Assembly: GCF_020514095.1 (NCBI RefSeq)
Contig: NZ_VTKY01000010.1
Coordinates: 1 to 43,216 of the forward strand
Reading direction: 5' to 3'
Origin: Synechococcus sp. MU1643
GTDB lineage: Bacteria; Cyanobacteriota; Cyanobacteriia; PCC-6307; Cyanobiaceae
DNA length: 43,216 nucleotides
The translations under genes were made by a program, and so were the position numbers. Shown here piece after piece: positions 33,175 to 35,111 of this stretch. The notes below the pieces were generated by a model. It did not search any database. It worked only from the letters and a program-made list of their open reading frames with translations, and was not told the origin of the DNA. The first letter of the stretch is position 1. Every line of letters begins with the position of its first letter.

Positions 33175-34677
33175 TCAGAACTTGAAGACGGTCTGGAGGA
33201 CGGCACCGAACTGCTCCTTGCCAGATACACCCTGGGAGGAGTTGGACTCAGGCAGATAGAAGATTGCCGGAATCATGGTGATGTTCTTGGAGACCTTGTA
33301 CTTCAGAGAGGCTTCCCAAGCGAGCTCGGGAGCATCGGGATCAGTACCGTCTTGGGACTCAACGTACAGGGGAGCACCAAAACCAACAGCCAGGCTGTGG
33401 GGAGTATTGGCGACTTTGTCCCACTGCAGACCAACCATCCAAGTTTGGGCCTCGTCGACGGTGCTTCCTTCGAGATCAGACCAGCCATAAGCAAGGCTGA
33501 CGGAAGGAATGAAACCTGTCTCTTCAGGCTTCCAGAAGCCGTTCAGAGCAAAGTTCTGAGAATCGACGTTGTCACTTCCGCAGCTCTGCTTAACAGCCTT
33601 GTAGGCAGTGCCGAAGCCTGCGCCACATTGGCCATAGCGGTAGCCAAGGGCCGCGCCCCACTCCTTAGTGCCGTAACCCAGCTGGGCAGTGGTGTTGCCC
33701 TTGGATTTAGCAGTGAACATGCCTTTACCAGAGCTGGCCTGCTCTCCGTCATCAGCGACGTAGTTCAAGGCAGCAGTCAGGCGAGGCTCACCCTTGGCAA
33801 CTTTTTGCTTCCAGATCAGACCAACGAGACCGCCGGTCTCTTTGTTGTAAACGTTGCCAGCACCGAATTGACCACCGAACATATTCAGGGTCTTCACCGT
33901 GTAGGCCGTGGGCTTCATGCCCAGGCTTTCGGTGTTACGAGCCATAGGACCAACGATGGCCGTCAGACCTGAACCCACAGGGAACTTGTAGTACAAGCGA
34001 TCAAGCTTGAAGGTGTTGCCGGACATACCGGAAACATCCAGCTTGCGGAAGCCACCAGAGAAAGCAGCGCCATCCTTCATGTTGCCTGCACGCAGGCGAG
34101 CAAACAGAAGATCCTTACCGGTGAAGGAAGTCTTCAGGCCGAGGCGGTAGTCGTAGGAGAAGCTGAGCGCGTCGTCGTCAGCTTGAGCGTCGGAAGCCTC
34201 AGAATCCATGAAGCCAGTCACAAAGGTGGCTTTACCTTTGAGCTTGGTGGTGGTGGAGAACTGGGTTGCTTCCAGTTCGCCAACGCGGGCCTCGAGGCCG
34301 TCAACGCGACCCTTGACGATGGCCATCTCGGTTTCGAACTCAGCCATCAGGCGACGCAGCTCGTCGGTCACTTCGGTGACGCGATCGAGACAGGCGTTCA
34401 GCAGGGCAGCCGCTTCGTAGCGGGTCATGGCACGGTTGCCACGGAAGGTGCCGTTGGGGTAACCGGCGACGCAGCCGTAGGTCTCAACCAAACCAGCCAA
34501 AGCCTGATAGGCCCAGTCGGTGGGGTAGACGTCGGAGAACTGGGAGACGCTGGTTACCTGATCAGCGGAAGCCGCGTAATCAGAAACGCCGTTGATGTTC
34601 AGCTCGGCGGCATTGGCGCCGGTGGCCAGAAGGCCAAGGGCGGCAGGAGCCACCAGCAGTTGCTGGAAAAGCTTCAT
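33175..34677 (-). CDS. SLH-domain outer-membrane porin (Som type)
   Basis: A 500-residue outer-membrane porin of the cyanobacterial Som/iron-uptake porin family. It has a signal peptide ([23 protein letters not shown]), an SLH domain at about residues 45-100 ([38 protein letters not shown]), and a short coiled coil (about 105-140, [20 protein letters not shown]). An OprB-like beta-barrel follows, ending in Phe (TVFKF), the usual outer-membrane signal. SLH domains of this family bind the peptidoglycan layer. ATG 34677 is chosen because it starts the signal peptide behind a GAGGA ribosome-binding site; the extension to 34740 is not plausible. It has its own promoter region and terminator. Confidence 0.93.
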
Positions 34678-34684
34678 TTTGGAT

Positions 34685-34693
34685 TCCTCACAC
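34685..34693 (-). promoter_or_regulatory. Porin ribosome-binding site complementary to sRNA Yfr1 core
   Basis: The minus-strand leader reads GTGTGAGGA here, with the GAGGA Shine-Dalgarno 7 nt before the porin ATG. This is the exact complement of UCCUCACAC, the end of the ultraconserved Yfr1 core ACUCCUCACAC of picocyanobacteria. Yfr1 is known to repress Som porin translation in Prochlorococcus by pairing at this place. The Yfr1 gene itself is not in the window. The match is direct; the regulation is inferred. Confidence 0.75.
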
Positions 34694-34699
34694 AGGAAA

Positions 34700-34717
34700 T
34701 TGGCGCTACTACGCCAA
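34700..34717 (-). promoter_or_regulatory. Hairpin just upstream of the porin Shine-Dalgarno
   Basis: TTGGCG-N6-CGCCAA forms a perfect 6-bp stem whose base lies 6 nt upstream of the GAGGA/Yfr1 site. Such a stem would hold the ribosome-binding site in a single-stranded context, or present it to the sRNA. It is conspicuous in an otherwise unstructured leader. Confidence 0.4.
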
Positions 34718-34770
34718 ACCGGATTTTGAGGGCTGGTCACTCGTTATCCAATGCAGCTTGTGCCGGTACT

Positions 34771-34795
34771 TACATCGACATGTATCAGCAGATAC
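34771..34795. promoter_or_regulatory. Paired dyads in the porin upstream region
   Basis: Two adjacent, overlapping perfect dyads occupy 34771-34795: TACAT-N4-ATGTA (34771-34784) and GTATC-N4-GATAC (34782-34795). They lie about 95-120 bp upstream of the porin ATG, where a promoter or operator would be expected. No known consensus is matched. Confidence 0.3.
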
Positions 34796-34832
34796 CGTTT
34801 GCATCTCAGCGGATTCTCTCTAAATAAACGAT

Positions 34833-34860
34833 GCCCCCGCCCGGAGGTCCGGACGGGGGC
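34833..34860 (-). terminator. GC-rich hairpin, probable minus-strand terminator
   Basis: Arms 34833-34845 and 34848-34860 pair over 13 positions. Read on the minus strand, every position pairs, counting one U-G; on the plus strand the same position is a C-A mismatch, so the element fits a minus-strand RNA better. The following ATCGTTTATTT is only partly T-rich, making a moderate intrinsic terminator. It would end a short transcript carrying the 17-codon frame and insulate the porin promoter. Confidence 0.55.
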
Positions 34861-34914
34861 TCTCGCCGGGTCCACTTTTGCCGCGGAACCGGATGATCAG
34901 TCAGAAGGCGCCGT

Positions 34915-34968
34915 TCAGCCGGCGTTCTCCGCGATCAGCAGACCCTGGATCAAACAACTGGAAATCAT
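34915..34968 (-). CDS. Possible 17-aa peptide with strong ribosome-binding site
   Basis: ATG at 34968 opens a 17-codon frame (MISSCLIQGLLIAENAG). AGGAGGAGG lies five nt before it, the strongest Shine-Dalgarno in the window and uncommon in cyanobacteria. The peptide is mildly hydrophobic in the middle and ends in a small acidic/Asn tail. A structured leader lies upstream and a GC hairpin downstream, so the unit looks complete. I know no family. It could be a small protein, a leader peptide, or an incidental frame in an sRNA. Confidence 0.4.
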   Translation of the reverse strand: MISSCLIQGLLIAENAG

Positions 34969-35006
34969 GGACACCTCCTCCTGAAGGATTGTGAATGCCG
35001 GCAACG

Positions 35007-35035
35007 CCTTCGGAGTTGTGCCCACCTCCCGAAGG
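35007..35035 (-). other. Leader hairpin upstream of the 17-aa frame
   Basis: CCTTCGG at 35029-35035 and CCGAAGG at 35007-35013 are a perfect 7-bp inverted repeat; with one bulged G the pairing extends to nine pairs. An alternative fold, CUUCC-UUCG-GGAGG, uses the same segment. Two mutually exclusive folds ahead of a strong ribosome-binding site are what an attenuator or riboswitch-like leader would show, but this is speculative. Confidence 0.35.
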
Positions 35036-35111
35036 AAGCTCACACCTCTCCACGCCACTGCATCCTGAACACAAGGACCATACTCAGTTTTTAATCAGAT
35101 GAGAGCCACCC

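Follow-up and report, generated by a model that had tools for sequence, protein, structure and literature searches.

A Som-type porin gene of Synechococcus sp. MU1643 carries, across its ribosome-binding site, the nine-nucleotide sequence GTGTGAGGA, which is exactly complementary to UCCUCACAC, the nine bases at the 3' end of ACUCCUCACAC, the Yfr1 core. The best reading of this arrangement, and one that we regard as very probable, is that Yfr1 and a Yfr10-like RNA repress translation of the porin by occluding its ribosome-binding site, and that Yfr2 relieves the repression. The basis for this is formed by the site itself, the small RNA genes found in the same genome, the complementarity between them, and the conservation of both the site and a hairpin that precedes it. 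Positions are those of the window, the whole 43,216-nt stretch of DNA that was analysed, unless a contig (C1, C2) or locus (L) is named.

The porin leader and its complementary site

The porin (500 aa, minus strand, 33175..34677) was recognised from its open reading frame together with matches to SLH and OprB domains, and shares 35-49% identity, over the best segment, with Prochlorococcus relatives. Its leader reads TTGGCGTAGTAGCGCCAATTTCCTGTGTGAGGAATCCAAAATG. Within it the Yfr1/Yfr10-complementary site GTGTGAGGA, assigned on complementarity, placement and conservation, occupies 34685..34693 on the minus strand, overlapping the ribosome-binding site. Between it and the ATG, the A of which is at 34677, lie the seven bases 34684-34678. 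A first-pass annotation of the window had proposed a perfect 9-nt complement to the 3' end of the Yfr1 core with the Shine-Dalgarno sequence inside it, 7 nt from the ATG, and this is borne out in both respects: the complement runs from 34693 to 34685 on the minus strand, and AGGA at 34685..34688 is the putative Shine-Dalgarno sequence. The duplex between site and core is contiguous over 9 nt, with a computed energy of -15.2 kcal/mol.

As a bare nine-mer the site is unremarkable, since matches with at most one mismatch number four in the window against 9.9 expected; the exact sequence occurs there once. When the pattern was placed relative to a start codon (GTGTGAGGA-N3-14-ATG), the 2.07-Mb genome gave two matches, both at porin starts, and the reversed-pattern control one. 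These two placements are not independent and count as one event, because the porins are paralogues that are nearly identical at their start and have the leader core in common. Summed over 34 genomes of the genus, the placed pattern gave 93 matches against 19 for the reversed control and was present in 30 of the 34; G261, among the four without a placed match, carries the site before GTG starts. Of 54 porin leaders examined that have the nine-mer, 52 fit the placed pattern. For the shorter GTGTGAG-N3-18-ATG there is hardly any enrichment in the genome (15 matches, control 12).

The second site-bearing porin is the paralogue at C1:290777-292303, and a third porin of the genome, at C1:275985-277547, is without the site. 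The coding sequences of the paralogues are identical over their first 351 nt (34677-34327 of the minus strand in the window, compared with L002) and have two mismatches in the first 440 nt, yet the proteins are 55% identical overall. Gene conversion is the likely origin of this SLH part of both genes, and the leader core that they have in common may be a product of it as well.

Small RNAs bearing the core or complementary to it

Yfr1, upon which the annotation depended, is not missing from the genome: yfr1 (RF01116) was found at C1:46667-46723 with a score of 67.1 bits and the exact 11-nt core, and its predicted fold places the core, unpaired, between two stem-loops. This core has been reported as perfectly conserved (PMC2190773). 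Three copies of the 11-mer are present in the genome, against one of its reversed control, namely in yfr1, at C1:662799 and at C2:265732. At the second of these positions, ACTCCTCACAC (core at L284 1501-1511 (-); G000:C1:662799-662809) is followed directly by a strong hairpin and eight Ts that resemble a terminator, and the stretch is read as a putative Yfr10-like RNA gene. The third occurrence of ACTCCTCACAC, at C2:265732, was considered as a third small RNA and rejected, as it proved to be a Yfr2 copy read on the opposite strand.

Two copies of the Cyano-1 RNA (RF01701), which we take to be Yfr2, are present in the genome. In the copy at C2:265678-265746, GTGTGAGGAGT is found close to the 5' end; this end reads GTTTGTGTGAGGAGTGCC and therefore holds a perfect 11-nt complement to the core, with a duplex energy of -18.5 kcal/mol as opposed to the -15.2 kcal/mol of the porin site. 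The second copy is without a perfect match to the core. Near-complementarity of Yfr2 to motifs of Yfr1 and Yfr10 was noted earlier (PMC2518516), and Yfr2 is reported to pull down both RNAs (PMC6778093).

Across the family, the placed pattern was found in 351 of 400 genomes and Yfr1 in 336, leaving 64 without an RF01116 match. Twenty of these 64 were searched for porins, nine of them at least 90% complete (17 of the 64 are); the other 11 are 53-81% complete, so that yfr1 may be missing from the assembly. Eight of the nine near-complete genomes carry a core followed by a terminator-like stretch, as judged by eye, and all 25 porin leaders fetched from genomes other than G025 keep at least 7 nt of the site (17 nine, six eight and two seven). 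In G008, G091 and G063 (L287, L279 and L293) the core is followed by a terminator-like hairpin unmatched by RF01116, and the porin sites read GTGTGAGG-TTC or TTGTGAGG-TTC. The cores in genomes without an RF01116 match agree with the report that Prochlorococcus SS120, which was thought to be without Yfr1, expresses Yfr10 (PMC6778093).

The use of such genomes as a clean natural experiment was dropped, as most of those examined carry other core-bearing stretches, and only G025 (L154, L173, L334) is thus informative. One exact and 27 one-mismatch cores were found in G025 (reversed control 33), none of which resembles a small RNA gene by eye; a core at L331 is followed by five Ts. The site is present in none of its three porin leaders, and the genome keeps four placed patterns that are not assigned to genes. 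Co-loss of the core RNA and the porin site is possible in this one lineage.

These distributions bear on the identity of the partner. The second ACTCCTCACAC with its strong terminator-like hairpin, and the near-complete genomes that keep the site together with such stretches and have no RF01116 match, fit a real site whose main partner is the Yfr10-like or another core-bearing RNA and not Yfr1. We consider this unlikely, though by no means far-fetched, as an account of the leader: against it stand the presence of Yfr1 in the great majority of the family genomes and the repression by Yfr1 of a reporter for the MED4 homologue (PMC6778093).

Conservation and folding of the leaders

The site proved to be conserved when the porin leaders of relatives were compared. 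Among the matches listed, the 91 leaders from 31 genomes of the genus comprise 54 with the nine-mer, 14 with GTGTGAGA and 23 with neither, and 27 of the 31 genomes have at least one nine-mer leader. For named Synechococcus and Prochlorococcus strains, 53 leaders were obtained from 59 loci, of which 39 have the nine-mer, three keep eight nt, one keeps seven, three have the GTGTGAGA variant and seven have none or no usable start. In a profile of 68 non-redundant leaders, positions 1-9 hold 1.48-1.97 bits, positions 3-7 being invariant by construction as the set was anchored on a 7-nt motif; position 10 holds 0.99 bits, and there is little information upstream except for a pyrimidine tract of up to 0.94 bit. 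Because of this built-in invariance, anchoring on the Shine-Dalgarno sequence (AGGA) alone was added, a choice made to avoid circularity. The set so treated comprised 144 leaders (the 91 of the genus and the 53 named, partly from the same genomes); in 98 of them AGGA lies 3-14 nt upstream of the start, and GTGTG stands directly 5' of it in 93 of the 98, or 46 of 50 after removal of near-duplicates. That the sequence is kept across picocyanobacteria is strong support for a site of base pairing.

Two further kinds of leader were observed. In class C (14 of the 91; L185, L188, L216, L218, L230, L244 and others) GTGTGAG is kept and the next bases are changed to A(A); most of these leaders have a hairpin of the CTGGCA/TGCCGG type and a TTCTC arm, and pairing with the core falls to 7 bp and -10.5 kcal/mol. 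A site-less porin type has a conserved 11-codon upstream open reading frame (xLRHG.IA...) in all seven leaders looked at (L006 1469-1504; also L187, L189, L192, L193, L194 and L252), the stop codon of which overlaps the porin ATG, thus suggesting translational coupling.

Could the block have been kept merely as a strong ribosome-binding site, or another cis element of an abundant mRNA, with an incidental match to Yfr1? The Shine-Dalgarno sequence does lie inside it, the A at position 10 is conserved in 52 of 68 leaders and is not explained by pairing with Yfr1, and an upstream UUCC/UCCU arm could pair with the block. However, GTGTG lies outside the Shine-Dalgarno sequence and yet is found in nearly all of the non-redundant AGGA-anchored leaders, the block is the complement of the core, class C keeps GTGTGAG where the bases after it change, G025 is without both the porin site and a recognisable core-bearing RNA, and the cis arm fails a re-dealing control described below. 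We therefore hold an incidental match to be improbable.

The arm in question is seen in the window leader, where the Shine-Dalgarno sequence is predicted to pair with UUCCU just upstream, a point absent from the first-pass annotation. In the minimum free energy fold, TTCCT-GTGTG-AGGAA (34684..34698, minus strand) forms a possible small hairpin with the Shine-Dalgarno sequence paired and GTGTG in the loop, and GTGTG has a modelled mean unpaired probability of 0.92 in the leader. An arm able to pair with the Shine-Dalgarno sequence is present in 37 of the 68 leaders, against 23.1 with shuffled upstreams; upstreams re-dealt among the leaders gave a mean of 38.8 and a largest value of 44, and the masking hairpin was rejected as a selected element. 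The four class C leaders in the set of 68 do match their own arms, and the upstreams of the other leaders match the altered Shine-Dalgarno sequence in 10% of combinations, which is no more than suggestive.

Ranking by energy did not bring the site to the top. Among the 1617 start-like positions of the window it came third with the core alone (scored by energy and accessibility, the best 200 rescored), and with the bases flanking the Yfr1 core it was not among the best start-like positions there; the rank says little either way because the background includes the starts of spurious open reading frames.

Upstream of the site, the stem that had been placed at 34700-34717 is present at these coordinates, as TTGGCG-TAGTAG-CGCCAA (34700..34717, minus strand), at the predicted 5' end of the mRNA. 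Of 70 non-redundant leaders bearing the motif, 60 have a stem just 5' of the site, where mononucleotide shuffles lead one to expect 15.0. Dinucleotide shuffles served as a second control: here 58 of 68 leaders have the stem, whereas the 60 shuffled sets average 15.8 and reach 25 at most. Stems of 4-8 bp were allowed in the search. Among the 58 hairpins there are 49 different 5' arms, thus the fold is retained and its sequence is free. In the window, a -10-like CAAAAT (34723..34728, minus strand), recognised from its sequence and from the placement of the hexamer in relatives, is preceded after a 17-nt spacer by a putative, weak -35-like TTGGAT (34746..34751, minus strand) with three of six matches to TTGACA. 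In 24 of the 58 leaders an xAxxxT hexamer has its end at a distance of exactly 6 nt from the hairpin, on the upstream side, and each of the other 23 offsets tested gives such a hexamer in 1-13 leaders. As the -10-like hexamer sits 6 nt before it, the transcription start is predicted to lie at the hairpin, at about 34717-34716 and hence upstream of the site. A search of 34600-35110 at a relaxed E-value gave Rfam matches that were all far below their gathering scores.

The hairpin had been proposed to keep the site exposed, and this stands only in part. It is conserved, and the modelled cost of opening the site is about 1 kcal/mol lower with the native hairpin than with it shuffled (4.46 vs 5.41 kcal/mol), the native value being the lower in 51 of 58 leaders; however, the modelled mean unpaired probability of the site is not raised by it (0.418 vs 0.441, p 0.19). 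Exposure of the site thus has modest energetic support from the model, and protection of the mRNA is an equal candidate. The som/PMM1121 mRNA is among the longest-lived in MED4, with a half-life of 13.0 min by qRT-PCR and 28.6 min by microarray (PMC2897979), which would fit a protective 5' stem-loop. That the hairpin and its U-rich tail form an attenuator terminating transcription before the porin is very improbable: short stems followed by Ts do occur in many leaders, but the stems are mostly of 5-7 bp, the run of Us is broken, each of the positions -5 to -1 being a T in 29-51 of 68 leaders, and with the -10-like hexamer 6 nt upstream transcription would start at the hairpin and leave no leader to attenuate.

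Proposed mechanism and its relation to known systems

The control favoured here, which is also the one that the first-pass annotation proposed and which the present results support, could proceed as follows. A short stem-loop would form the beginning of the porin mRNA; a linker rich in U would come next, and then GUGUGAGGA, which holds the Shine-Dalgarno sequence. Yfr1, whose expression is reported to be near-constitutive, and the Yfr10-like RNA would pair with the site through UCCUCACAC, blocking ribosome binding and lowering porin translation, and the Yfr2 motif GUGUGAGGAGU would pair with the same core over 11 nt, titrating Yfr1 so that translation resumes. The start site and the pairing in the cell are putative, and the repression and its relief by Yfr2 are proposed by analogy with reporter work in MED4.

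Richter 2010 is said to be the original Yfr1 target paper and to contain mutation tests. It is cited in PMC6974561 and PMC3142192. In published reporter work, expression from a PMM1121 5'UTR fusion fell 4.7-fold with Yfr1 and was restored by Yfr2 (PMC6778093). The same source reports that Shine-Dalgarno sequences are no commoner than chance in MED4 and questions their blocking as a general mode (PMC6778093). PMM1119 and PMM1121 of Prochlorococcus MED4 resemble the present case in the small RNA core, in a porin type alike by its domains, in a site over the ribosome-binding site and in having Yfr2 as antagonist. They differ in organism and paralogue, and the Synechococcus case is known from its sequence.

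In Escherichia coli, the small RNA MicF blocks translation of the mRNA of the porin OmpF. That system (mentioned in PMC6202907) works alike, although its small RNA and porin are unrelated to those considered here. In Nostoc PCC 7120, the conserved Yfr1 core likewise acts on 5' leaders and porin mRNAs are among the predicted targets, whereas the targets are mainly cell-wall genes and, in the available text, a porin leader with hairpin plus site is not described (PMC6974561).

The control itself is thus known, and what is new is this porin as a further case; the anatomy of the leader may also be undescribed before, a search of open-licence papers having found no description of Synechococcus porin leaders or of the conserved hairpin, which is only a weak sign that none exists. 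Control of the kind known for two porins of MED4 would then reach marine Synechococcus and, judged by the pattern, most of the sampled genomes of the family. Tentatively, it is conceivable that picocyanobacterial porin mRNAs have a two-part leader, with a 5' stem-loop fixed in position and free in sequence, and a Yfr1/Yfr10 site on the Shine-Dalgarno sequence; the stem-loop might keep a silenced, abundant mRNA alive as a stored pool that Yfr2 could free without new transcription. The sequence-free hairpin before the site would in this way offer a hypothesis as to how an abundant, long-lived porin mRNA stays switchable by a near-constitutive small RNA.

A separate element was noticed in the interval that separates the porin promoter from the gene next to it, where about 155 nt (34835-34990, minus strand), with a terminator-like hairpin at the end, are nearly identical among the window and the six relatives aligned. 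No Rfam match at gathering scores was obtained for this stretch. It contains a 17-aa open reading frame, MISSCLIQGLLIAENAG, at 34968-34915 with a strong Shine-Dalgarno sequence, and as the remainder is about as conserved as the frame, a structured RNA is a possible reading of the element. Upstream of it lies an imperfect palindrome, which recalls, by description only, that given for Yfr103 (PMC5069720).
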